From: Mugil cephalus
Taxonomy: Eukaryota; Chordata; Actinopteri; Mugiliformes; Mugilidae
Length of the DNA: 64,000 nt
Assembly: GCF_022458985.1 (NCBI RefSeq)
Contig: NC_061779.1
Coordinates: 11,544,501 to 11,608,500, forward strand
Direction of reading: 5' to 3'
Below are positions 2,996-55,200 of this stretch, one piece after another. How positions within the stretch are numbered: the first letter of the stretch is position 1; the number at the start of each line of letters is the position of its first letter. Made by a program: the position numbers and the translations under genes. The notes beneath the pieces were generated by a model that saw nothing but the letters and a program-made list of their open reading frames with translations, did no database searches and had not been told where the DNA came from.

Positions 2996-4640
2996 TCGGC
3001 GTTTATGTCTTTACTACATCATCTATTAGCTACTTTTTGCCAGATACAGCAGCAAATATTGTTTTAAAAATGCCAAAAACATTAGATGTGATGTTTTGTG
3101 TGGTGCTCTAAGCTCGTAGATGTGCCACGCCAGCGTAACCAACCTTAAAAAGCAATGCAGTCAAATAGTAGAAACCACACAGAAACGAATCACAGCACCA
3201 CAACTGTCGGGGGGAAAAAAGCTACCATGAAACCATTTGATGACATCTTGTCATCTGTTGATAAGTCTACAAAGCCCTGCTCTACTCTTTACAGCTGTTT
3301 CAAGCTTTTTATCATCAGAAACATTAAAAAACATTCAAAATTATCCTAAACCAGACCTAGATCTAATTTGCCCACATATCTATTTTTAGCCACAAAACAA
3401 ATTTGCCTGAAACTGCTCAACTGTGGCAACGCAGGTGGCTGTTAAACCTGGTGTCACCTCCATCAATCCTCTCAAAAGAAAACCCAGTCCACCCAACCTG
3501 TACCTATAATATTAACAAACAACAACATGTTAAATGTCATCGTGCTCACAACCTAAACTGACGGTGGCACGCTGACGTATACTTTGTACAGCAGACAGTT
3601 ATGATGATGTGTCATACTACACCAAACAGCCACAACATTGAAACCGGCGATAAATGAAGTGTATAATATTGGCTGAATTAACGATTAACGAAGAAATGTT
3701 GTTTTAAATGTGTCCTGCAAAAAAGAAAGAGGAAAAAAACGCTCCCTACATCCCAGTCTGACAAAGTATCTGCAGGATGCGCTACATCAAGTCTGATCCA
3801 CAGAAGCCCCGCCCAGCAAAACACAGGACCCGCCACCAGTGTCCCATGTCCTCGTCTCAACGAGTTCACCGCTGTTTTGTTGACATTAATGGGAACAACA
3901 CACTGGCCGGGTGGTTTTAATGTTATGGATGGTAGGTGTGTGAAAAGCACAGCTGTTTCTAACAATGACAGTCCTGGTGAACCAGCACCCTGACTCTGCA
4001 GCGGTTAAATGAAATTCAGTCGTGACTATTTTTTATTGTTAACACTCGTGCTTTTCCTACTGTGACATGTCAGAATGTCTGCAGTGAAAAACATCCATTA
4101 AACTCCACCTGCAGGGAAGCAGTGCAGCTGAAGCTGAGGTTGCACTTACTCGAAGCCTCTAAGGACAGACGTGTTTACCATAATAATGTGAAAGAAGTGC
4201 TGCTGCAGCGGATGATTGTTGAGCTGGGAGCGTTTAGTAATTTGAATCTGAAGTGTCCTGGTGTCACCGCTGCACAGGAGACGAACACGGTTGATTTAGA
4301 GACATTTTGGCAAAAGTTTTAGAGTGCAAAGAACATTTAATCCACACAGTCAGAGGAAGTTCTCACGTTACATTCAATTTGTGTTACTGACAAAGGGGCC
4401 ATTTGATGTTTGGTCTATCACATAGGAAGATGTGAGGTTTTAGCGTCTGTAACAAGTTTCATAACTACTTACGGCTCAGCTGTGAATTTTGCATATCGAG
4501 GAGATGGTACACATTTTTCTACCACAATGCTCGATCACTATTTCTATTTTATCCACGACCCAATCTCACCTGGTGTGGCCCGTTTTTCTCTCAATTGCTG
4601 ATTAAAGAGGAGCCAAAAGGCAGCAATGTGAATCCCACAA
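2996..4640. other. Intergenic spacer between rsbn1l and tmem60 3' ends
   Basis: The two genes converge on this spacer. It contains one inverted-repeat element (3622-3936). Short open frames here (for example 4062-4322) have no recognisable similarity and no splice context, so I do not call them genes. Confidence 0.55.
3622..3936. repeat. Non-autonomous TIR element, family A
   Basis: The left end at about 3622-3648 contains agccacaacattgaaacc. The right end at about 3909-3936 contains ggttttaatgttatgg, its imperfect inverse. The same pair of ends recurs near 16884/17583 and 20815/21267. The body is about 315 bp with no coding capacity, so it resembles a MITE. The superfamily was not determined. 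Confidence 0.6.
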
Positions 4641-10700: not shown

Positions 10701-13403
10701 TGGCAGAAAATGACATCAAGAGTCTAGCGTAAGATCCTTCACAGTGCTCGTGTGTGCAGCAGTTCCCGTCTAAACTCACCGGACACCTTCATTAAGGACG
10801 TAGAGTTCGTTATCGGCCAAGCCCTTCTTCTGGAAGACTGCTATGACGGCATTGTGGATGCTGGAACACGAAACACACAGAAGCTGGTTCACGTTACTTC
10901 CGTTTAAGACATTTAAACGCGTTCATTTGGCATCATTCGGCGTACCTGTTCCAGGTGGCGTTGGCTCCTGCCCTCTTCTGCTTCTCCCCTCTGTCCTCCG
11001 GTGAACTTTTCTCGCTCTTCCCCAGCTCGCTGAGGCTGGGAGAGCTCATCAACTTCAGCCGGTGCAGAGTCCTCATGGGGTAAACGTAAAAGGGGGGAGA
11101 GAGAAACAGAAACAGAGTGCGTGCTAAGTGGCAGTGGACAGCAGAGAAAGAAGGTCAGGCGATGAGCCGACGTGCACTGAGACGCGGGGAAGGAAACACG
11201 AGGAGATGGCTGGAGGGGAGAAGGAGAACATAAGCAGCGTGAGTTTGAGAAAGGGAGTACGCAGAGGGATACAGCACAGTGACAACACAAAGAGCGGCCG
11301 GTGGCAGAGGAGGAGGGAAGTAGGACAGAATGATGCATGGTGAGACAAGGGCAGCACACTAAGAGCAGGATGGGTGGAGCCCAGCGTGGAGGTGGGCCAC
11401 AGAGTCGCTGCACTGGCCGCAGAAAACAATAGCACATGCACTGATGGGGGCACAGTCTTCTTCCCTCTCTGCCTCTGTGTCGGTACAATACGACCATTGA
11501 TGCAAACAAATATTTATGCAGGGCACAGATGCCAGAGGAACTGCAGGGTAAGCAGAGGGCCGAGGCGGGTTGGGACTTTGTTGTGCTTGTGACTGTACAG
11601 AGAGGAGGTGGAGGAGGAAGTCGTCCGGCTTATTAACAACAACAGAAACAGGGTTAGGAAGCAGTGACACAATGTGGGACAATGAAGAAGCTCTTCCTGC
11701 TCTCCCACAGCTGGACGTAAGTGGCGCAGGATGAAAAACAGCAAAGAAACAGGAACTTGACCAATGCTGGATTTTTCTGTGGCGAAATGTGTGACCGTTC
11801 GTCTTCACGCCGGGGGAGTTGGACGAGAAGATCGGGGGCGGCTAGCTCGGCTTAGGTTAGCATAAAGAACTGTAAACGAAAGGGAAACGGCTAGCCCGGC
11901 TCCGACCAAAGGGAGTTACAGACCATGTAATGAGGTTGTAAAAGTCCTCTCTTGTGCGATCAGCTGCAAACTTTAACGACAAACAGAAAGCATGCTGTTG
12001 CCATGGAAACAGCAGCGCGAGCCGCAACATGAGCAGCCACCCTTTTCTCTTTTCTTTTTTCTTTTTTTTTTTTTAAGGCCTGTGTTTGTTTACATTTTGA
12101 AACATTAAATATGCTGAATTACCTGTTAACCGTTCCTTCCCGATACGCTGGATGCACTGACAACTCACGCGTCAGTCTATTGTGCGCTTTCTTGATGACC
12201 GTATAAAACAAAAACCTCTTTCTCGTTTTGTAATGACCTCTCATCTGCAAACTTATACTCACCAGCCAGTTCATTAGGCGCAAGCAGTGTAAAATAAAAC
12301 ACTGTAATTTAACAGTCCTGCACTAAATCTTTCTTTAATATAATGGTCGAGCTGTAGCTGTAGATTCACCCATGTACACTTTTGTAATATTATTGAATTA
12401 AATCATATTATACTGACTCATGTTTCTGTTATTTTGACAGCCCTGTTAGTCAGTGGGCTAGGCATAAAAAACAGAAACATTTCTGCATTTCATTTAATCC
12501 AGTTTAACAACACCACAAAGTACTTCCTCCAAAGCGATCATCCACTTCAGTTACTACCTTTCTTACACCGCTCCAACACAAACTGAACATTAAAACAGTC
12601 ATGAAGGAGGATTTAGAGCAGGTCTGTTACATTAGAATACGTTACTTTTCACTGGTGTACCTAATGAACTGGCAACTGAGTGTATTAACTGATAACAAGC
12701 TGAAATTTTAAGTCGATCCACCTTAAAAGACACATGACTCCTAAATGTTGATTTACCGGTACTTCAGCGTGACTGTTTTTTGTGCATACTTTAGCGCAGC
12801 CATAAGAATTTATATCAAACTGAAACAGTTTTTCAATTTTCAGGAGAGATTGGTAAAAAGTCGCTCTCTGAAAAAGAAAAAATGATGAATCCGTACCCAC
12901 GCAGTCCTGAAACTCCCTGCTGACAGCACAGCAGTAAACAACAGACTCCCCACCCTCCCCATTCACACCCACATACACACACACACACAGCACAACACAA
13001 CACAACACAAACACAGAGAAACATAGAGAGCAAGTGTACAGATTGATGAGATGTACACACATGAGGAAATGAGTTAATCAAAAGTCCCACCAGGAGATAA
13101 TTATCATTAGGCCGGCATGTGTCGCAGCAAAGCTCAGCTGGGTAATGAAATCATCTGGGACCAGGGAGGGTGTGATTCTTATTTATTTATTTTTTTTTGA
13201 GAAGGCTAATGAATGTTTTATGCATTTTCCGGGAAGCTGCGCGTTGTGAAATGTTAATACCGGGAGCCTTACCTCCTGATTGGATGCTCGCTGCTGCTGT
13301 CCATGTCCGGGCTCGGGGGAGGGGCAGAGAAGGTGCTGAAGTTGAGTGACAGGGGTCTGGGGGAGGGCCGGGAGGCGTGCCTCCGCCGTAGTCCATCCAG
13401 CAT
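7786..13403 (-). CDS. prr5: Proline-rich protein 5 (Protor-1), mTORC2 subunit
   Basis: PRR5 binds Rictor and is a non-catalytic part of mTOR complex 2, which phosphorylates AGC kinases. Coding exons from 5' to 3': 13403-13273, 11071-10946, 10860-10780, 10225-10177, 10045-9988, 9882-9791, 9683-9543, 8656-8521, 8421-8143, 8063-7786. They sum to 1,371 bp (456 aa and stop) with all phases matching. The HbrB-like core spans about residues 75-275; recognisable parts are NATWNSIHNAVIAVFQKKGL, LLKTELGSFFTEYLQNQLL, QKLLDSLAETWDFFF and YLRLESLVQKVVSPYLG. The tail keeps NPVVRSKSYNIPLL and ends in the family signature QVLESADSDSDGIFIDF. The first exon (about 43 aa, Pro/Ser-rich) is a less conserved N-terminus. 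Translation might instead start at the ATG at 11076, which overlaps a splice acceptor. PRR5L is less likely because of the C-terminal signature. Confidence 0.92.
9006..9410. repeat. Degenerate TIR element, family B, in prr5 intron
   Basis: The left end at about 9010-9038 (tgccagtttattaggtacg) resembles the ends at 12254 and 54339. The right boundary near 9410 is eroded and uncertain. The element lies between prr5 exons at 8656 and 9543. Confidence 0.35.
12254..12684. repeat. TIR element, family B, in prr5 intron
   Basis: The left end (ccagccagttcattaggc, about 12264-12281) and right end (gtacctaatgaactggc, about 12657-12673) are inverted copies. The body is about 430 bp and non-coding. A copy in the opposite orientation is at 54339-54668 in erc1. 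It is a MITE-like element of undetermined superfamily. Confidence 0.65.
13273..13403 (-). other. prr5: prr5 upstream exon carrying the N-terminal ATG
   Basis: The exon is bounded by an acceptor (ATGTCCAG) directly before ATG at 13403 and a donor (AGGAG|GTAAGG) at 13273/13272. It encodes MLDGLRRRHASRPSPRPLSL and then further Ser/Pro-rich residues. It joins the next exon in frame as PIR-RTLHRLK, so the whole 10-exon frame is a multiple of three. That supports a real coding exon, although the N-terminus matches nothing I know well. Confidence 0.6.
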
Positions 13404-16445: not shown

Positions 16446-19400
16446 ATGTCCAGTGAGGAGGAGAGGAGCACCTCTGCATCCAGGTGTTTTGGACAGGTAT
16501 GTAGCACAGACAACACCAGCCCACCAACTTCTGTAGAGGTTAATTAAAAACACAGGTGTGCAGGATTAGCCGAGGCAAAACACAGCTGTGGGTTCGAGTC
16601 CTGCAGCTGTGAAGAAGTAAAGAAGGGTTTTATTATTTAGAGAGTGGCACCGTGTCTTTTATTCTGCAGCACAGCAGAGACAATGATGTGAAGGATCAGT
16701 GGGTTATAAGTTATAACAAATGGTTATAAAAAAAAATAATGTAGCACTGGGACAAAATGAGTAACAATATGATGAAGATTGTTGTATGCAACATAATTGA
16801 CATGTGATTCCTAATAAAAATAAAATGGGGGGAAAAAAGTTATAACAAATTGCAGGGTGCAGTGCAGCACGATGGGTGACTTAAATCAGCCATAACATTA
16901 TGACTAATCTAGGTAATCACCTATATTATTATGAGACCTGCCAGTGGGTGGAATATATTAGACGGCATGTGAACATTTTGTCCTCAGTCTGGAGCTGTAA
17001 AGATGGACAAGCAGGAGGATCTGAGTGACTCTGATGAATGTTAAATTGTGATGACTGGACAGCTGGGTCAGAGCACCTCCAAAAATACAGCTCTTGTGGG
17101 TTGTTCCTGGTCTGCAGTGGTCAGTAGCTATCAACGTCAAAAGTAATACAAAAAAAAAAAAAAAAAAAAAGCAGCGAACCAGGGATGGGGTCGAGGCTGA
17201 ATGATTTACAAGGCTGGTCACTGTGGTCTGATCCGACAGATGAGCTACTGTAGGTCAAAATGCAGAAAAAGTTCATGCCGGGTTTGATAGAAAGGAGTCA
17301 CAGTTTATTTTATACTGTATGAGGCCGCGTAGACACAGACCGGTCAGAGAGCCCTTGCTGACCCATATCCACTGCTGAAAGCCGCAGCATCAGAACTGTG
17401 ACCACGGAGCAATAGAAGAAGATGACTCTTATGTGGACAACAAATGGCACCAGGACGCAAGGAACATATCCTTGCTGTTGCTATGACAGCGTATTTGGCC
17501 TGCAACAATGTTCAGGTGGTCGGGTCAGGTCAAATCAGAACATTTATTCACTTCCCTGGTTTTAATGTTCTGGCTGATCAGTGCTATCAACACTGATCTT
17601 CCTCCATCTGCAAAAGACGATTATAATTACTAACTAATCTGAAACCCTTCATATTTTGACGTATATAAATGGTCTTTTAGGTATTTAGGTGTTTTCTTTC
17701 TCATGTTTTTTTTGTTTTTCTTCTTTTTCTCTTGCCTGCTTCGCTGATGCTGGACCGCGTTGACAGTTCACCTACACGGCTGAGGAGTACCAGGCGGTGC
17801 AAAACGCTCTGCAACAAAAGCTGGGGCCAGAATACATCAGCACCAGAGTGGCTGGAGGAGGACAGAGGGCAAGTCTTTGTCTTTCTCTGCAGCTGTGTGT
17901 GGCCGATTCAAAGTCTCCCTCCACTGTACAGAACAAAAACACACACGAGGCACAAATTACTCAGCTTGTGCATCTCCTCCTCTGATTTCTATAGGTGTGT
18001 TACATTGAAGGGCATCGTGTCATCAGCCTGGCCAATGAGATGTTTGGATACAACGGGTGGTCTCACTCGATTTCCCAGCAGAACGTTGGTGCGTCTTATC
18101 AGACTATAGAGGCTCCGGCTTCGACGCTGTATCATTAGACTAATGTCAGCTCTTCTATTTTCAGACTTTGTGGACCTCATCAATGGGAAGTTTTATGTCG
18201 GAGTCAGTGCTTTTGTCAAAGTGCAACTGAAGGTTGGGTGAACGAATACTTTCATTTTCATTTCTCCATCGTCATTATTGTTCCAATCTCAGGATCAAGT
18301 TCACTGTTTGTGTCGTCTGCATGTATTTGAATGAATCTGTGTAACAAGGGCGTGTCCCTCCAGGACGGGTCGTTTCATGAGGACGTCGGCTACGGAGTCA
18401 GCGAAGGACTGAAGTCTAAGGCTCTGGCACTGGAAAAGGCGAGAAAGGAAGCTGTCACTGATGGCATGAAGAGAGCGCTGAAGTACTGGAGCTTATTATT
18501 TATACTCATTAGCTTTGCTCTTAATAAAATAAAAGTAATATTTTTTTTTGTCTTGTTGAGGTGTTTCGGTAACGCCCTCGGAAACTGTATCCTGGATAAA
18601 GGATACCTCCTAGCCATTAACAAGATCCCCAAACAGGTGAGAACATATAAAGTGTAACATTTTCATCAGTAATTCTTCAGGAGCTGAGTCTTGTTTCTTC
18701 TCTTCTACACAAAGCCTCCTCCTCCTCTGGACCCGGCCCAGACTAAACGCACCGAGGGCGAGCCGTCGGTGGAGAAGGCCCGCTTTGGAAGTATGGCTCG
18801 AGAGGAAAATCAAGCATCGGCTCCTGTCAGGACGCCGCTGGAGCCCAGAGTCATCAACCAGAACCAGGACTGTTCAGAAGCTTACACTCCTAAAGCTGCT
18901 GACCTTTGCCCTGATGGGAGGAGCGAGAACGGCTGCTCCAGGTAAAAAAAAATAAATAAATAAAATAAAAAAGCTTTAGTTTGTGGATTTAATCTGCACA
19001 GAAACCTCCTCATGTCCTCCTCCTCTCTTACTCAGGTCTGTTACGGACGAGTCGGACCCCAAACAGCTGAGAAAACTCAGACAGCAGCAGCTTCAGCAGA
19101 AGTTCAGGAGAGAGATGGAGGCCAAGAAGCTGCAGCAGAAACAGGATCAGGCCAAGTCAGAGGAGAAAGAGGTCACTATCGGACAAGGATCCGGCGCAGG
19201 TAAAAGTTTCACATGCACTTTCATTCAGTTTAAAGCTGCTGCCTCAGACTCCAACTACTCGTCAGGAATCCCAAGTAAATGTTGTGTCTTTTTAAACTAT
19301 AAATGTTTTTTGGGGTTCAACTGTTTGAGAAGTCACTCCATAAACTGAGGCTATAATTGTCACCGCCGGCTGGAATCAGACCTGCGCTCTTTGCTGCATG

Positions 19401-20384: not shown

Positions 20385-20800
20385 TAACAACATTATGCCT
20401 GACTGGTCACATTAATAACACTGATTATCTCATCAGTGGGTGGGATATAATAGGCGGCAAGTGAACGATTTGTCCTCAAAGTTCATTTGTTAGAAGCAAA
20501 AAAAAAAAAAAAGATGGACAAGAAAAAGGACTCATTCTGATGTCTAGACAACCGTGATCCATACTGATAAAAAAGAAATGGTCCAAGGAAGGAAAAGGAA
20601 AAGTGGTGAACCAGCAACAGGGTCATTGGCGTCACAGATGCAGACGAGGAGAACTGGACCATGGAGAGATCGAGGAAGGTGACCTGGTTTGATGGATCAG
20701 GTTTTCTTTTCCATTACATGGATGTCGTCTCTTATCTGGAGAATATATAGCACCAGAAACCTCTTAGCTAGCATTGTGATATAATAATGTTCAGTTTGTG
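20385..20800. repeat. Family A element, partial
   Basis: It begins with aacattatgcctgactggtc and contains agtgggtgggatataatag and tgaacgatttgtcctca, which match the element at 16884-17583. The far end is not clear and merges into the next element at 20815. Confidence 0.45.
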
Positions 20801-20814
20801 TATCATCTGCATAA

Positions 20815-21267
20815 ACTGATCAGTCATAACATTATGACCGCTTTACTAATATTGTGTGGGTCTTTGTTGTGCTTCATCAGAGAATGGACATGGGCCTTCT
20901 GAGGGTGTCCTGGTGTCAGTGGTGGGGGTATTTGGGTTCAATGGGTTGAGGGGAGGGACCTCAGTGGATCCCACAGAAACGTGATCAGTTTGGGATCTAG
21001 TGAATTTGAAGGCCTTGCGCTGTTTTTCATGCTTTTTTTAAGTCGTTCCTAAACCATTTTTGAGTGTGTGTCTGCGTGAGGCTGCATCCATCCATCCATC
21101 CATCCATCCAGGAGTGTCGCTGCTATGGGGTGGGGGTGTCCAGTCTAGGTGGATGACACATGTCTGAGTAACATCCAATCCCAGGTCCTAGAGTTTTACG
21201 AAAGAACTGTTACAAGACGTTCTTCACTTCTCCAGTTGGCGGTTTTAATGTTGTGGCTGATCGGCGC
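20815..21267. repeat. TIR element, family A, abutting wnk1 3' end
   Basis: The left end (gatcagtcataacattatga, from about 20818) and right end (ggttttaatgttgtggctgat, about 21241-21261) are inverted copies. The element is about 450 bp, carries an (ATCC)n run at 21084-21110, and shares gctatggggtgggggtg with the element at 49451. Confidence 0.65.
21084..21110. repeat. ATCC microsatellite
   Basis: Six to seven perfect ATCC units inside the family A element. Confidence 0.8.
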
Positions 21268-44306: not shown

Positions 44307-46520
44307 TGAGAGCAAGGGGGTACAATAATTGAAAAATTAAAATAAGGATACTTCCATTTCTGCTATATGGGCTTATAAATACAGTTTCTGTCTGTGCTTT
44401 AAAACTAAGAGAACGAGAGACAGAAAGACTCACAACTTCCACCTCCAGTGGTGCTTTGTTATTGCTCAAAGACAGTCTTTATATATATACAGTGCCGGGA
44501 TTGGAGGTGTAAGATCGGAGGTGTTCTCTTGTAAATGGAAAAAGATTGAACACCGCAGCAGAACACAGAGTGCTGATGTTGATACACAAGTCTCTTTAAG
44601 TCCACACCATCCATCCTGTAGGACACGGGATACAGCTTCTTTCAAGCATAAGGAATCACTGGTGAGGAACAAACACGCACAGGCACTAAACTTCCTAGTG
44701 CAGGCAAAGGTGGGATGGGCAGGCAGTCTGAATTTGCTCTGGTCCAGTTTCACTGCAAGAGAAAATAGAAAACAAACACCGTCTGACATGTTTCAAAAAG
44801 TAACCAATACTATGTCAAGTGTCAACAAGTTTTGTGAAGGAGCAGCCTAAGTCTGTGCAAGTAGAATTTACAGTATACATAAAGTGCATAGCCAGAAACA
44901 TTATGAACTAACGATTCAGACTGTTGACTGTAATGTGCATTTCCAGTGGAGTGCATTAAATCACCGTCATTTATAGGTTAAAATTTCATTGTGCCTGTCC
45001 TTAACATTCCCCCCTTTCTCTTAAGACCACCTTGGCCAAGAAAATGTCATGAAGGCCATGTGTTTGACTTCAAGTAGTATTTTCAACACTGGCCAGTCAA
45101 TGTACTATTCACTGATTTATTTAGAAGCAATTAAACATATTGCAATAACAACAGCATGTTAAACTGTGTGATGTGGCACAAAACTCAAATACAGCCTTTC
45201 AGAATAACTGACTGAGAATTTAATGTCTAACATTTATCACTTTCCTAGTCTCCAGCTTAAACAAGCAAACACATATGCTGTCATTCACAGGTTGAATATA
45301 ATATCAATATGTGAATTACATGAATTACTGAATTAAATTTCAATCATTAAAGCTGCACAAAGCTATACACATTTAACTTGTTTTTTGCCCAGTAATAAGT
45401 CATAATTCTGCATCCCGACCTCTGTTATAGTGCTTCAATTAAGTAAAATAGCTGTGACAATCTTGTTACTTATTCATCTGTAGCCTGTCATGGTTACAGC
45501 CATTACCAGCCAAGGCAACCATAATGTCACATCCAAACCGGATAATGTTAGCTGCGACATCCTGACAAATAAAACAAAACGGCAGTGCGAATGAACTAAA
45601 AACAAACAAACAAAAAAAGGATAACACCATTTATAGCTTACTAATTTTTCCATCGTCTTATGAGTGACAACATGGCCATCTGAAGTGGCAACATCGACCA
45701 CAACCTCACAAAACAAGGGGGATCGGTGGCTCTTTGTTAGAGCAAAGCTAGCTGGTTAGCTGTCGTCGGCTAATCCTTGAACGATAACCAACGATGACTA
45801 ATTTCCGCGTCACATCTTTTAAAATGTATCACCCATGCTGTGATTCAGCTTACATTTTCAAAGTATGTCACTTGGAACGCACAGTTACAATGGCACAGTC
45901 CAAAGCCTTTACCCCATCCAGGTCTTGTTTCCATCCCCGAAAGATTAGCATCACATCGGATACGTTCGTCCGGTGCAACGCCGGTTGGAGATCTACCAGG
46001 GACGTAGAGCTAACGGTAGCTAGCTGGTTAGCCACATAGCTACCGTTAGCTAACCAGCGAGCTACCTAGCCAACATTAGCCACGTTCCTAACTAGGTGGG
46101 CGGCTAGGTAGCTAAAATTGGCTATGTGGCTAGGCAGCTATGGCTAGGCGGTAGGTAGCTAGGCGGCTAGGTAGCGAACGTTAGCTAGGTAGCTAACATT
46201 AGCTATGGGGCTAACTTTGCCCACCTAGGCGGGTCTTGCTAACGGCCTACATAGCTGGACCCTCCTCCTGGCTGCCCCCATTCAAATTAACGTTATCTCA
46301 AGCGTTAATAATATTAAAGCTGACTTGCCGTCATTAAAATCATAATATCAATCACTGGTTTACACCAACCATTCATAGTAGGGTAGCAAACCATCTAATG
46401 TTGGACATAATTTATTTGTGATAGAGTTTAACGTTCAGGTGAGTCTAATTTTGTTGGGAGTTGTTAGCAGTACAGACTTAGCTTCGGCTGAGCGGAGCCG
46501 GGTGGTTGATAGCGACCTAC
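44307..46520 (-). other. wnk1: wnk1 5' UTR intron(s)
   Basis: An acceptor is seen at about 44307-44310 (CTTGCTCTCAG) and an alternative one at about 44754-44757 (CTCTTGCAG), so the 5' UTR may be spliced in more than one way. The GCTA array at 46007-46217 lies inside this intron. Confidence 0.45.
46007..46217. repeat. Degenerate palindromic GCTA/TAGC array
   Basis: About 210 bp are built from GCTA, TAGC, GTTAGC and CTAGGTAGC units in both orientations (for example gctagctggttagccac). Many units are self-complementary, so either strand can form hairpins. The array lies about 300 bp downstream of the putative wnk1 first exon. Confidence 0.75.
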
Positions 46521-46766
46521 CTCAATATCGTATCCACAACACAAGTCACGGTCAGTGGCGTTGAAATTCTCCTCACCGCGTGGATCCGTCTTCATATATA
46601 TGAAAGGGACCGCATGTACATACTCCACATGTTTGTAAGTGTCAAGCAGGTAATACGTTTCCCAGTCTGTGGACGCCGGAGTTTTTACCGTCTGGTTTTC
46701 AAACCAGCGGCGCAGAAGCTACAGATTGAAGAAGAAACGTCTTTTTCCCATCGCGCCTGCGCAACA
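46521..46766 (-). promoter_or_regulatory. wnk1: wnk1 first non-coding exon and promoter (probable)
   Basis: A donor on the minus strand (ATTGAG|GTAGGTCG) ends an exon at 46521. The sequence above it contains an NRF1-like GC palindrome (gcgcctgcgca, about 46755-46765). The start site is inferred. Confidence 0.45.
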
Positions 46767-48379
46767 CAGCAATGACCTCATAACCATAACACAGCACTTT
46801 GACGCTGCTGGTGTTGGACTTGACCTTCTTATTATGGGTTTGTTTTAATTAACAACGCCTACCTACCGCCTAATTATAGGTGATCAAAAATATTACAGGA
46901 TATCACATTTCTTGTCTCTCTTCTACAATAGATTGTGGTTGAGTGAGTGACAAGCCCTCGTGTCTATCCTGAATGACTTGATTTTGAACTGATTTTGTTT
47001 ACAAATGATTTACAAATGGCATACCATGTTTGACCTTAATTGTTGCAGTTGTTGTTGATATGTTCTTGAACAAACAACAGGTTAACCTGGCTATGATTTT
47101 GTACCTAACTATCAAACATTTATCTAACTGGAATTTTGTATATTTGTACAACAAATGAAAACCATACCATACTCTTTCTGAAACACAAGTTTACTTTCTG
47201 CCAGCCCTCACATGCATGCATGTTATTAAACAAAAATGGTATGTTTTATTTGTCTAATTTCTATCGTGCTATAAGCGTAAAACAATAAACAACGTTGCAA
47301 TATGTCATAATGACTGTATAATATAGTATAACCATGTTTGATATATGCAGAAAAACAGTGAATTGGATGGAAAAAAGAAAGATATCAGCAGTTTCTAACG
47401 AGTTCGTAGTTGCCCTTTTCGTACATGTTAGCACTGCCCCCTGCTGGTATTTGTTGACTAAATGTGCCAAAATGTTCTGCTTTTATGACACAATAAACTG
47501 CAGTCTACCATCACAAACAGCCGTTACATTGTAAATATCAAAAAGAGAAATACTCCATTAAATGGTGGCATTTGGGTGCCTGACCTCAACATTTACTTTC
47601 ACTTCCTTTTTTTTCAGAGCTTTGTATGTTGTCAGCATTTATCCTAAATGAAATGACTTGATCGTGAATTAATGTGACAAACAAATTGCTAAATAGCTTT
47701 TATATTTTTAAATGTTTTGTCAAACATAAAAGACAGTATGTTTTATCTTTTGTTCACATTTCACTTTCAGGTTGTATCTTTGCTGTCGAACATTGCTTAC
47801 TGTGGTCATTTTGGGGATTTTCGGTTTCTTTCTTTTCTTCTTTCTTTCAAGTGAAGCAGGATGTGGGCAGGGATGTTGCTACACTTTCAGGGATTCAATA
47901 AAGATATTTTTTTACACACATAAAATATTTTCTCATATTCTTGGTATTCATAATTAATACAATGCAGTTTCACTCTCATTTAATGCAGATTTATCAGCAT
48001 TTCTTCTTTAACAATAAGTGTTTTATCTATTCCAAATCCTGACATATGTGTTTGTTGAGAAGTACTAATCTAGTTATTGCTCTGTCAATCTCTTGTTCAA
48101 TTTAAGAACTAAATTGAACTATTTTAATAAAAAATAAACACTTATTATTAAAAATAAATTAATATACACTTGAAAAAGAAACAAAAGACAGAAAATTAAA
48201 AAGACTTACAATAAAAACATAAATTTCGCTAATTTCAAAAGAGTTGGGAATATAAGTATCAATAATTTCTCCACTCGCTTTCCACAATAAATGTCTCCAT
48301 TTGTGTGTGTGTGTATATGTGTGTTAGTGTGTTTGTTGTGTTGTTTTTATGTGTTGTGTGTGTGTGTGTGTGTGATTCC
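46767..48379. other. Spacer upstream of wnk1
   Basis: AT-rich sequence with no recognised exon. A GT-rich run at about 48302-48374 marks the edge of the kinase pseudogene. Confidence 0.5.
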
Positions 48380-49059
48380 TGAATTCAACACAGTGTCTTT
48401 TGGCCCTCATGGCCTCATACTCACATGTATCGGAAGTGCAGGCCAATATATAGCAAAGCCAAAATACTGCTCAGAGCCCACATGCCCACTGCTTTGTCCA
48501 ATAGAAGGCCCAGCCTGACCTCAGGGGCCCAGTAACCAAGGGCCTGAAAGTGCCCACGGCCCAAAGCGGAAGCCTAAGTGACCAAACCAAAGTCAATCTA
48601 TTTTGCCTCGAAGGGCCGTGACTGATGATTGACGAGCATTATGTTGTCTGACTTGATATCAGTGCGAGCCAGATCAGTGATTTTCAGAGCATTCAGAGCC
48701 ACCAGCATCTGCTCTCATTTGATCCCAGACACACGCAGTGGCTTGAACTTCCTGCTTGCCATGAAGTCAAATGAGCTTGTGTCTAGCATTTCAAAGGCTA
48801 AACAAATGTGGTCGAAATGTTCGGAAAACCTGACCCAGCTTGTTTGGGCCTTGTCAAGCAGCCTGAGCTTTTTTTTTTTCTTTTAAACACAACAACCTCT
48901 TTTTAGCTTCGTTGTTTAAGATATTTCTTGAACAATTTTAACTGCTTTTGTGTCCTGTTTTATGCACATGGCCACTTTTACATAACTCCCCTCACCGAGC
49001 AACCATTCAACCAAGTATTTACCTGACTTACTAAACAGAACTTCATATTGTTCAACCAT
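48380..49059 (-). pseudogene. HIPK-like protein kinase pseudogene
   Basis: Read on the minus strand from the ATG at 49059, the translation gives the start of a HIPK-type kinase domain: YLVEWLLGEGSYVKVAMCIK (glycine loop), then RFSEHFDHICLAFEMLDTSS, KPLRVSG, QMLVALNALKITDLARTDIK (catalytic loop, with HAD or HRD replaced by RTD), SDNIMLVNH, IDFGLVT, and GYWAPEVRLGLLLDKAVGMW. Stop codons and frame breaks occur after QEIS, after SGIK and after FGLVT, and the catalytic Asp context is altered. Blocks that would lie on several exons follow each other without introns, which suggests a retrocopy or a decayed single-exon member. The call rests on eye alignment with remembered HIPK motifs. Confidence 0.65.
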
Positions 49060-49450
49060 GAAACACGGCATTTATAAAGCGCCTGATTCTTTCCTAGATA
49101 TGCAGCAAGTATTGTCTTCAGATAATTGTTGAATTGGTACAATGGTGCAATACAGGCGTTTTTGTCTGTGTAGTATTTACTCGTAGAGACAAAGTGACCT
49201 CAAAGATGTGTGAATAGGAATTGCTTGGCTTTGATCTTGACTGACAAAGCTTGTTGTATGTTAAGCACTGATTGGCTTTGGTCTTTCTCTATGACACTGT
49301 TTGATCCTAACTGAGAACATTTTCAGTCACTGACTCTCCATTTTGGCCCTGGAAGGTACTGTCACCTCGGCGGCAACTTGTCACTGCCAAAGACCAAAGT
49401 TCATGATTTTCATGGTCTAACCTCCACAATAAGTTAGAAGTTATACACCC

Positions 49451-49770
49451 ATAAGTCATAACATTGTAACTTAATGTGACCGAATATTTTGTAGGTCTCC
49501 CTTGTGCCTCCAAAACAATTCCGACCAATCAGAGTCTGCAGGCCCAGCTTAAAGAGGTAATAAAAGGTCTCCCGATTTTAAGATCCGTTGTATTAAGAAT
49601 ACATTATAATTTATAACCAATCATGTAGTGTCATTGCTATGGGGTGGGGGTGCCTGGTCTGGTCTAAGTCTAAGTGGTTTAAGTGGGTCTAAGTAACATC
49701 CACACGAATGTCAGGTCCAGGCATTTCCCAGCAGAACATTGAAATGTCAAAAAACATTGTTGGCAGGAAC
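49451..49770. mobile_element. Composite family A element carrying an erc1 exon fragment
   Basis: The left end (aagtcataacattgtaac) and the right-hand block (gctatggggtgggggtg, then gtctaagtaacatcca, then aggtcc) match the family A element at 20815-21267 in order. The middle of that element is missing and replaced by 49536-49607, a copy of the erc1 exon 2/intron junction. The right terminal repeat is eroded (aacattgaaatgtc). The join on the left falls at a shared atcagag. Confidence 0.6.
49536..49607 (+). pseudogene. Duplicated erc1 exon-intron junction fragment
   Basis: 72 bp match 52743-52814 (last 21 bp of the first erc1 coding exon, its GT donor and about 51 bp of intron) with about 6 mismatches, roughly 92% identity counted by eye. 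It encodes the exon end LQAQLKE and keeps the donor AAAGAG|GTAATA. It lies 3.2 kb upstream of the source, in the same orientation, with no other erc1 sequence around it. Confidence 0.8.
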
Positions 49771-50639
49771 CAGAACCCTTCACACAGTACATCATTGTGT
49801 AAAGTTCTATAAATAATAACAATACAGAGAGAGATACAGAGTCATCAAATCCAGAACTAATAACAGTTGTTACTGTATGTATATATACATATATTTTATC
49901 TGTGTGCTGCTATAGTTTTTATTTTTTTATTGCTCCTGAACCAAAGAGCCGCCAAACTGTATTTCGTTGTTATCACCAGACAATGACAATAAAAGCTTTA
50001 TTGTTATTATTCTTAAAAACGGAATAATTGGCTGGGAAGGGACATACTAATGTCCCAGAGATTATGTTTATTAGGAGACAAGGCACAATTTCGAAACACA
50101 ACTACTGGCGAAGTGTCTGTAATCAAAAAAATGAAAACAAAAATTCAAAGTACGGATTAACACCATGATAGAGACTAACTCCCCTGAGCTTATGATTAAT
50201 AGGTTAAATAACAGAAATAAGGCTGAGGTATCAGTCTGGGAACTCTTGGACTCATGACACATGAACTGATTAGTCTGCAACATGAATGCCTCCACTTAAA
50301 GTAGCTAATCTGTGATATTAAGGTAACCTGTTGGATGAATGTGTCCTTTTAGCTATGACATTGACAATTGTTCCCACATTTGATTATTTTAATATATGTA
50401 CTTTATTTGATCACCCTGACATTATTTCAGTTTTGTTATACAAGTGGTGATAAATGTGTTTTTAGCAACGATGTCTCATACTGTAAATCTCCGTACTATT
50501 ATACCACTGTTATACTGTCATACACCAAAGCAAAAAAAAAAAAAGTAATAATAATTCAGTCTAAACTCAGTCAATTGTTTCAGTAGGACGGTGTTTTAAG
50601 ATATCCCAAGTTTTCTGTTGTCAGTGAGTGAGTTGGCAG

Positions 50640-50916
50640 GTCTGCTCCATCGGCCCCCCTTTCTCCAGCCATTGAGTCGTGACCGCGCGTCTAAAATTCA
50701 AGCGTGGCGAAGAAGACTGCCGTGAACGCGCGCAGGAGGCTTGACGTCACTGAGGCGCCCTGGCTCTCCTGAGCCGCTGGCGAAAAAAAAAGATGGGAAA
50801 ATCAGATGCACATTTACCGAGAAATTGATGTAAAATGACCGCTTTTGCTGACGATTTCCACTTGACAGAAGACCCAGTGTCGGCACCGATTTGAGCCCCG
50901 GCAGACAACGAGAAAG
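50640..50916 (+). promoter_or_regulatory. erc1: erc1 promoter and first non-coding exon
   Basis: CpG-rich sequence (gaacgcgcgcagg) contains a perfect cAMP-response-element palindrome TGACGTCA at 50742-50749. A non-coding exon ends at a donor (AGAAAG|GTAGTT) at 50916/50917. The exact start site is inferred. Confidence 0.55.
50742..50749. promoter_or_regulatory. erc1: CRE palindrome TGACGTCA
   Basis: Full 8-bp CREB/ATF consensus within the CpG-rich erc1 upstream region. Function is inferred from the motif and its position only. Confidence 0.5.
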
Positions 50917-52012
50917 GTAGTTTGTTTGGAGGGTTTTTCTTTTAACCGCTGGCTATTGTGTTAGCGAGAGGAAGAAAAAAAAATAGAGATTCTGCTTGAC
51001 CACAAAAAAAATGGATGTAGTAGCCTCCTTATAGGCGTGTGCACAATTTATATATGTTACCGCTTTCTCTGATATGTACTAATCTTTTAAATGCGGACTA
51101 TGTGAATGAACAAAATCGTAGCTGAAGACGAAAAGCCGTTCAGCAGAGGAGAAAAATGGACATGGTTTGACACGGGTGTCTCCAAAGCAGACATTGTACG
51201 GAGCTGTTAGGATCGTGCTAAAGGCTTTAATTCCGGTTAATTTGGTCACATTTGAACGCATCGTACAATAAACCTCAAATATACAACCTATTCTACAAAC
51301 TATTATTTCTGTTTGTGCAGAAAAAAATTAAAAAAAAATCAAGCTGGGAGGTTTTTTTTTTCTCCCACTAAGTCCACCGTGGACAATCCCCTTTTTTCCC
51401 TCCCTTGCTAGTTTTTAATCCTTAGCGTCAGCACATTAGAAAAAACGATCCAGAGATTCAACGTTTACGTCCCAAGCGAAAGACACGGACGAGAACTGGA
51501 GCAAGCGGTGACATTTCAGGGCGTAGTTGGAGATAGAAATGTCAGCCTTTGCTTTTAGCCGGTGTGTAGACGCCACATTAGCCGCTAGCAAGGCCACGCA
51601 GGCTGGAGTTAAATGGCTGTGTGGAGACGTGCAGTGACAAAACTCAGTGTGAAGCAGAATAGTTGCACATGTTTCTGGATGCAAAAAGCCTCTTGGATTT
51701 GATCTGATCTGATCTGTGCACCGTTAAATATCTGAATTACGACCCCAGTTGTAGATTTGTGGTACACATACTTCCCCATACCTTTGTGTATGTATGTATG
51801 TATGTATATAATGCATAGAGTATTTTCTCCGACGTGTATATAATTAAATTCTTGGATATAACTTTATACAGTTTGCATGACTGCATGTACTGCAGGAGCA
51901 AATCCAGTTAAGATTGTAAATAAACAAGGTGATGCTGCATATTGTATTATTAATTTCTAGCTTTATTCTTTGTTGTTTATTTAATTGGAAACGCCTCGTG
52001 TTTTCTTTACAG
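50917..52012 (+). other. erc1: erc1 intron 1
   Basis: 1.1 kb intron with a GTAT microsatellite at about 51788-51810. No further feature was seen. Confidence 0.55.
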
Positions 52013-52217: not shown

Positions 52218-55200
52218 ATGTACGGTAGCGCCCGCTCCGTTGGCAGAGGGGATGCCAATCATAGTGGTGGAAGAGATGGAGGCGGTGCTGGCAATCAGGG
52301 ATCCGGCCGCTCCCCTCGCCTTCCCCGCTCTCCCCGGATGGGACACCGTCGTACCAACAGCACCGGAGGCAGCGGAGGGGGTCCGGGAGGAGCAGGAGGG
52401 AAGACGCTTTCCATGGAGAACATCCAGTCCCTAAATGCTGCCTATGCCACCTCCGGACCAATGTACCTGAGCGATAATGAGGTCGCCATGGCGGGTGACC
52501 ACCTCCCCAAAAGCGGTGGGACTGTGACGACCATGGGGAGACAAAGGGTGACATACGGGTCACGAGGTAGCAACAGCGGAGTTGTAGCCGCGAGCACTCC
52601 CAATATCTCCACCTCAGTGCCTGGCAATGCGGTGCTGCCTGTAGGCATGATGGCTGGCGATGCTCTAGCATTCGGGGACCACCACATGGCGTCCACAGTG
52701 CCCCATTCTCTGAGGCAGGCCAGAGACAACACCATACTTGACCTGCAGGCCCAACTTAAAGAGGTAATAACATGTCTCCCACTTTTAAGATCCATTGTAT
52801 TAAGAATACATTATTTTTTTAAAAGAAATCTACATATCTCATACAGTAATTACGTGCTAACCAGTAATCTTGCTTTCTCAGGTTCTGCGTGAGAATGAGA
52901 TGTTGCGACGAGATGTGGAGGTTAAGGAGAGCAAACTCAGTTCCTCCATGAACTCTATCAAGACCTTCTGGAGCCCAGAATTAAAAAAGGAACGGGCTCT
53001 TAGGAAGGATGAGGTTTCGAAGATTAACGTCTGGAAGGAACAATATCGTGTTATTCAAGATGAAGCGCAGGTGAGTTTTCCCTTACAGTTATGTGAATGG
53101 AAAGAAAGAAGATGTTTTTGCCTGTTTTCATCTAGTGTGTCGGCTTTAATACAAGAGTGATTTCCTCCCATATTCTCTCGGCACAGGTTAGAAGCAGTTT
53201 TTGATCATCTAGCTAATCCTCTTATATGCAGCTATATGCTCATGTTTAGTAGATGAAAGAGGATGTAAGTCTAATGGCTGCATTAGCATCTCTGTATGTC
53301 ACTGGATTCGGTGGAAAGGATAAAAAAACAAGTGGAAGAATATAAAAATGGGTAAATATGTAGGATTGTGGGAAGATGAGGAAGATGTCTCTGTTGAGGT
53401 TGCAAAGAAAAGAGTGCATTTTAGCTGTGTGCATTCAAGAGCTTTAAACATAATGTTCAAGTTCGGTTTACGAGACGATATGGGTGATTAATTATTTTAA
53501 AAGCCTTCAACTACAGGACTGTATCAAGTTCCTCCTTCAGTCCTTCGGCCTTTTTATTTTTTTTTATTTTTAAATGCTGTGTTTCCTCACACATCTGAGT
53601 CCCTCAAAATGGAGCATACGACCACGTACTAGACTTGGGTTGTGCATTTGTGTTGCATCTTCATCGAAATGGGTTGTTGCGTGCTGCTCAATGTTTTGAC
53701 CTATTTATAGCAGAGTAACAGATACAGATCAGGCGTTTAAAAAAAACAACAACAACAAAAAAAACTACTATGTTGTAGGAAATTAGGTTTCGTTAATGAA
53801 AAGCAATTGTCTTTGTTTAACTGTGATTCTTAATGGATGGGCCGACCTGTATAATTTCCTGTTTCCACTCCTGCTGACTCACAGAACCACACTCTGGACT
53901 AATTCCCAGTAATGCCCGACTAGTGCAGGGCTAATCATCGGGTGCTTTAATTTAAAGATGTCTGCTTTCAAACGTCTGATTCCACCTCCCACACTGGCAC
54001 ACACACACACGTACACACACACACACACACACACTCAAAGACATTTGGTTAATTACAGCTCCGTGCCCTCATTGAAAGGAGGTCTAACTGCATGTGCTTA
54101 CAGCATGTTTACACATGTACACATTTATGTGTGTAATTTAGATTTTTCTTTTTGGCTTATTTCAAATTGGAGTCATCGGCAGTCGCTTGAACACAATAAA
54201 AATAAAATAAAAGATTAGAGAGTCAGAGAATAATTACTACTTCTCACATCTGTAAAACATAGCCGTTGTGAAAGGATGCTGTGAAATGCCAGCGATGTTT
54301 AAACATTTTGATAAAACGTTGCTATTGTTGCAGATATACATTGACCTTCAAAAACATTAGGTACACTAGTGAAATGAATGCATAATGAACAGACCAACTT
54401 CATGACTGTTATAAGTTTTAATTTCCATTCAAGCAGCATAAGAAAGGCGGTTATTCAACTGTAAGATCATTTGTCAGAATAATAGAAATATGTGTACAAC
54501 ATAATGCTGTTCTATTGTACTACAAACCACAGCCAAACATCAACTCTTATTTTCAAGAAATGCTGAATACAATAACCTTCATGAAGCTAAATATTTAGTT
54601 CAGGGCTGTTACAAAAGAATGCATTAGTTTTCACTAAAATACCTAATGAAATGGCACTATAGTGTATTTAAATAATAAAAAAAAAGGAGTTTGTGTGTCA
54701 CGGTGAGCACCTTTTGATGTTGTAACTTTTATACCGTCGATGATGTGTAGCAGATTCATTATGACCTGGCGTTTGGATCCGTTTATTTAGTGAATCACGT
54801 CTCATCAGCTCCCACCAACACCTGACTGTTGTCTCTCCTCGGGAAGAGAGAGCGAGAATATGGGGGCTGAGGAAGGGAGGTGTGTGTGTGAGTGTGTGTG
54901 TGTAAGTGTGTGTGTGTTTCTGAGCTTGTCTGTGCATGCATATGCCCGTGTGTATGTTGTATCGGCGCAGTCACAGCAGTGAGTCAGCCCTAGTCACGGG
55001 GCGGAGAGGGGCGGTTGGTGAGAGGAGAGGTGAGAGTATTGGAAGGAGGGGATGGGATGACGGCGGGGAAAGGTGGATGAATGGTGTGTGTGAGGATGAG
55101 AGAGTGGTGTTTGCTGGTGGAGGCCGAAGGAGAGAGTGACAAAGGAAAGGAGAGGGAGGGGGCTGGAGGAGGAGGAGGACGGAGAGAAATGAAGGCAGGC

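Follow-up and report, generated by a model that had tools for sequence, protein, structure and literature searches.

A 72-bp copy of an erc1 exon–intron boundary inside a Tc1-like relic of Mugil cephalus, probably a patch from local templated repair

Pack-TIRs are transposons bounded by two terminal inverted repeats in which a filler foreign to the element lies between stretches of element sequence; a source at least 90% identical to the filler is found elsewhere. In animals, 370 of them have been described, eight in zebrafish (Tan et al., 2021; PMC8277862). Among the 281 unique cases of that survey, 160 have their source within 15 kb, in most instances at less than 5 kb, and 190 show microhomology at a breakpoint; single-copy cases were attributed to gap filling that needs no transposition (PMC8277862). 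A further study cites direct repeats at filler DNA, but in its own test Drosophila introns showed no excess of them (19 of 77 for gained introns, 26 of 100 for controls; PMC3296678). Such patch-like repair has already been described in animal genomes, and the erc1 case presented here, found in a window of 64,000 nucleotides (the whole stretch of DNA analysed), is most likely a further example.

The copy and its source in erc1 (Table 1) are identical at 66 of 72 positions, ungapped and on the same strand (E 1.7e-24), in agreement with a preliminary description of this DNA, which had claimed a match to the end of the exon, its donor and the intron with about six mismatches, in the orientation of erc1 and 3.2 kb upstream. 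One of the six mismatches falls among the 21 exon bases and five among the 51 intron bases, and the copy crosses the exon–intron boundary. The same description placed the copied donor wrongly, at 49562; the GT lies five bases further left, at 49557-49558. When the window was searched against itself with low complexity masked, six repeat pairs had E up to 1e-4 and the erc1 pair was the best of them, and 49300-49900 compared within the window yielded only one other copy of the 72 bp, the source. A source with 91.7% identity, 3.2 kb away in cis, is thus present as in Pack-TIRs.

Table 1. Positions, in the window, of the erc1 source, its copy, the junctions and the Tc1-like sequences
Feature	Position	Strand	Remarks
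Source in erc1	52743..52814	+	Exon part ending at 52763 (3' end of the first coding exon of erc1); intron start, with its donor GT at 52764
Captured erc1 copy	49536..49607	+	Exon part 49536-49556 (21 bases); intron part 49557-49607 (51 bases), with donor GT at its start
Left arm of Tc1-like relic	49446..49534	- (would-be transposase sense)	Weak terminal repeat; matches to element and uncurated consensus
Right arm of Tc1-like relic, internal part	49620..49741	-	Matches to element and uncurated consensus
Junction bases AATTTATAACCA	49608..49619	+	Aligned to neither source; last four belong to 8-bp repeat
8-bp direct repeat ACCAATCA, left copy	49524..49531	+	
8-bp direct repeat ACCAATCA, right copy	49616..49623	+	
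Related non-autonomous Tc1-like element, used for comparison	20815..21267	-	Ends match as inverted repeats

The sequence was copied from erc1 to the relic and not the reverse, because the copied exon part (21 bases) codes for the residues at which the Pfam Cast match to the joined exons begins. The last seven codons of the source exon read LQAQLKE; once this exon is joined to the next one, Cast (PF10174) is matched at E 1.2e-31, with the alignment starting at profile position 1, while the first coding exon alone gave no Pfam hit. The name erc1 was assigned because of the Cast match and of the neighbours, namely Rad52 (Pfam match, E 1.4e-13) and a gene that we take, from reading, to be wnk1, a piece of which was sent to Pfam without a hit. 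A further criterion for Pack-TIRs is a source that has no TIR element next to it within 100 bp; here, the surroundings of the source (~52.7 kb) gave no hit at E 0.01 with the consensus of one family, the Tc1-like one introduced below. Between wnk1 and erc1, at 46021-46215, there is also a cluster of imperfect GCTAGGTAGCTA-like repeats, both direct and inverted.

The two flanks of the copy match, in order, the left and right parts of the element at 20.8 kb, as had been claimed for what was then called family A. The ends of this element score 32 as inverted repeats, where 95% of 300 random stretches score up to 23.1. The left flank (49443-49510 against 20811-20875) scored 47.5 and the right flank (49620-49761 against 21106-21224) scored 67, with maxima of 32 and 38, respectively, in 1000 dinucleotide shuffles, so that no shuffle reached either score. 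The erc1 core showed no match to the element, its score being reached by 822 of 1000 shuffles, and the middle of the element (20876-21105) gave only a weak best alignment with 49430-49830 (score 21). A second comparison used an uncurated text that we take to be the consensus of a common teleost Tc1-like element, and which serves as a lead rather than as a database result. The left flank corresponds to positions 1-85 of this consensus (69 of 85 identical) and the right flank to positions 360-481 (93 of 117 aligned bases identical), neither score being reached in 300 shuffles; for the controls, the score of the erc1 core was reached by 133 of 300 shuffles and that of 49770-50000 by 100 of 300. 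Positions 86-359, amounting to 274 of the 1221 bases of the uncurated consensus (~22%), are absent where the erc1 piece sits, which bears out the earlier claim that the normal middle is missing. The filler, itself not derived from the element, is therefore bordered by element sequence to its left and right.

The uncurated consensus also matches relics near 16.9-17.6 kb (E 2.8e-57) and at 3.6-3.9, 20.4-20.7 and 20.8-21.3 kb, and these matches support its text. On the minus strand, both flanks contain reading frames that resemble, by reading, a Tc1 transposase. Three short stop-free pieces of the relics in the window had no Pfam hit, and the Tc1-like assignment thus rests on the uncurated consensus and on this resemblance. 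The first three of the relics matched by this consensus lie at 16885-17585, 3620-3938 and 20399-20722; the one at 3620-3938 seems to be a combination of a middle piece and two right ends. A second, diverged repeat family occurs in the window at 12254-12335, 12583-12698 and 54563-54681, with 73-76% identity.

A TA at 49444-49445 adjoins the left end of the relic and may be one side of a TA target duplication. Four probes for a right terminal inverted repeat in 49700-50300 gave nothing above the null: three of them scored 14, less than random stretches do on average, and one scored 18, equal to that average. This last probe, taken from the left tip of the relic itself, has low power, since its score with the right ends of two relatives (22) does not exceed the 95% point of the null (22). 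Of the terminal inverted repeats that bound Pack-TIRs, then, the relic has a weak left one, and no right one was found in that range. Because of this, the host is most likely a truncated, internally deleted relic, and the copy may also represent a chance insertion into a repeat.

Over the two branches together, copy and source have come to differ by 8.3% (6 of 72; Jukes–Cantor 0.088). For the relic, the comparison with the uncurated consensus, which covers one branch, shows differences at 40 of 202 aligned bases (0.23; Fisher p 0.027 against the copy), and that with the 20.8-kb element, which covers two branches, at 42 of 181 (p 0.007 against the copy). Since the copy has thus diverged by 8.3% and the relic from its relatives by 20-23%, the capture looks later than the decay of the element and suggests an event after its active life. 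The contrast is borderline for the 51 intron bases alone (p 0.047), and its reading is limited by the use of an uncurated consensus, by subfamily differences and by possible gene conversion, which could keep the erc1 copy young. The preliminary description had offered either Pack-type capture or a template switch during local movement or repair. Pack-type capture linked to active transposition, by gap repair after excision or by fork switching followed by movement, would suit a Tc1-like host, given that TcMariner elements hold 115 of the 370 published animal Pack-TIRs (PMC8277862). However, multicopy cases in print have distal sources (PMC8277862), and here the source lies in cis at a distance of 3.2 kb; in addition, the right terminal repeat was not found in 49700-50300, and the element arms have diverged further than the piece between them. 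We therefore consider this part of the earlier proposal very unlikely. Its other part, a template switch or local repair, stands as the best reading.

At the left junction, element sequence runs to one base before the erc1 copy; no leftward extension of the erc1 match and no clear case of microhomology with the source were found there. At the right junction, element alignments resume directly after the bases AATTTATAACCA, which are either filler or what decay has left of the copy's end; attempts to extend the erc1 match past 49607 gave no significant result, since 67 of 400 random starts did as well. The insert lies between the two copies of the 8-bp direct repeat ACCAATCA. This repeat was noticed before testing, and repeats of its length arose in 0.7, 1.0 and 1.3% of 20,000 random placements with flanks of 20, 25 and 30 bases, respectively. 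The repeat may be a duplication made at a staggered break or a native microhomology, as CCATC is present in both arms of the uncurated consensus at the ACCAATCA sites. These observations bear on the possibility that the relic had lost its middle earlier, that end joining then placed a patch in it and produced the 8-bp duplication, and that the transposon setting is incidental. Consistent with this, the right copy of ACCAATCA departs by eye from the uncurated consensus at three positions, at all of which it has the bases of the left copy, as expected of a duplication. However, the CCATC shared by both arms indicates that the repeat may be old microhomology, and the missing middle coincides with the insert. 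We regard such a two-step history as unlikely. A hAT-type insertion as the source of the 8-bp repeat was set aside, because no inverted ends were seen by reading in the insert.

The duplication-like repeat and the position of the copy on the same strand as erc1 would also fit the insertion of reverse-transcribed erc1 pre-mRNA as a templated insertion of class 1 or 2. Against this, no poly(A) was seen at the ends of the 72-bp copy, for which reason a LINE-type insertion was likewise set aside, and the closeness of source and copy would be unexpected for a free RNA. We regard an RNA intermediate as highly improbable.

Considering these results, we propose the following scenario, to which we assign a probability of roughly 0.7. 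An old, inactive Tc1-like relic may have suffered a double-strand break or a stalled fork in its middle, at which ~270 bases of the relic would have been lost. The gap would have been patched with 72 bases copied from the erc1 exon–intron boundary 3.2 kb away, the probable route being template switching (gap filling) followed by end joining. The 8-bp repeat fits either fill-in of a staggered break or a copying strand that returned slightly upstream. While the copy, its orientation, the element flanks, the 8-bp repeat around the insert and, by comparison with relatives, the loss of the middle are observed, the break, the template switch and the order of these events are what we infer. The consequence of the patch is probably neutral.

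The copied donor is the same as the real erc1 donor from -3 to +6 (GAGGTAATA) and scores 6.0 bits with an uncurated matrix; counting the copied donor, 7 of the 365 GT sites in 46440-52010 reach that score. By the same matrix, the GT at 46439, in the context CAG|GTGAGT, is the strongest plus-strand donor in 45.0-52.1 kb, with 12.5 bits against 7.5 for the second best, and is located in a stretch of raised CpG ratio (windows starting at 45.4-46.6 kb). An acceptor ending at 52012, before the erc1 coding start, ranks fourth among 302 AG sites in 46.5-52.1 kb by a crude score. The strong donor and this acceptor suggest that 46439-52012 may be a first, 5' UTR intron of erc1 that holds the relic; the copy may thus be inside that intron, and hence not upstream of the promoter. 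Against this intron, the stretch at 45.4-46.6 kb has less than 50% G+C, the marks for CpG ratio and G+C being reached together only in the windows at 52000 and 52200, and a second stretch of raised CpG ratio (windows starting at 50.4-51.4 kb) leaves room for a nearer promoter. The donor at 46439 stands isolated between wnk1 and erc1 and is a candidate for a non-coding first exon of erc1 or for a divergent transcript. As the preliminary description suggested, a role of the copied donor as a decoy 5' splice site is possible. If a transposon acceptor ending at 49494 were joined to the captured donor at 49557, a cryptic exon of 62 bases in the first intron would alter 5' UTR splicing, and erc1 would have acquired, ahead of its own sequence, a duplicate of its splice donor; the candidate acceptor is weak (rank 51 of 302 AG sites by the crude score), and we consider such an exon very improbable.

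In searches for outside copies, a motif from the element end was found in 0 viral contigs, and an 18-base internal motif was found in one viral and 10 genome contigs. The latter matches are taken as chance, about seven being expected by our own estimate in 257 Gb. When the four elements of the window were compared with these 11 loci, all matched around the motif, the longest match (locus L007) covering 38 aligned bases at 87% identity (E 1.4e-5) and the remaining ones being short, with E of at least 0.16. No Tc1-like transposase was seen in two of the 11 loci, for which the ORFs of L005 and one reading frame of the L007 stretch were inspected. Moreover, 16880-17590 had no match to phages and 49200-49900 had none to plasmids. 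Among the publications listed for transposon gene capture in animals or fish, no capture of erc1 was named, which does not imply its absence from print.

With the Tc1-like elements of teleosts the relic shares a terminal repeat and, on its minus strand, pieces that resemble transposase, whereas the host described here is a non-coding, internally deleted and truncated relic. The locus is most likely a clear single case, in a vertebrate, of local templated repair in a dead transposon duplicating an exon–intron boundary. The closest likeness is to the single-copy cis Pack-TIRs, which also have element sequence on both sides, filler from less than 5 kb away, an apparently old host and an explanation by transposition-independent gap filling (PMC8277862); in contrast to these, the right terminal repeat of the mullet relic was not found in 49700-50300. 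The median gap of the element in published Pack-TIRs is 4.6% (PMC8277862), and the gap here is larger (~22%, by the uncurated consensus). Templated insertions of the human genome (TSIPs) are similar in being short templated patches with unassigned junction bases, but they derive from a distant source, whereas the source here is local (PMC5110952); those of class 1 have a repeat of at least 5 bp, as here, and poly(A), which was not seen here (PMC5110952). In Drosophila, alternative end joining by polymerase theta likewise produces insertions copied from DNA near the break (PMC2895639), although the template in the present case is 3.2 kb off and the copy is 72 bases long. The cut-off of the Pack-TIR survey (BLAT minScore 100; PMC8277862) is out of reach for a filler of 72 bp, and patches of this kind may therefore be undercounted, beyond which the interest of the case is local.
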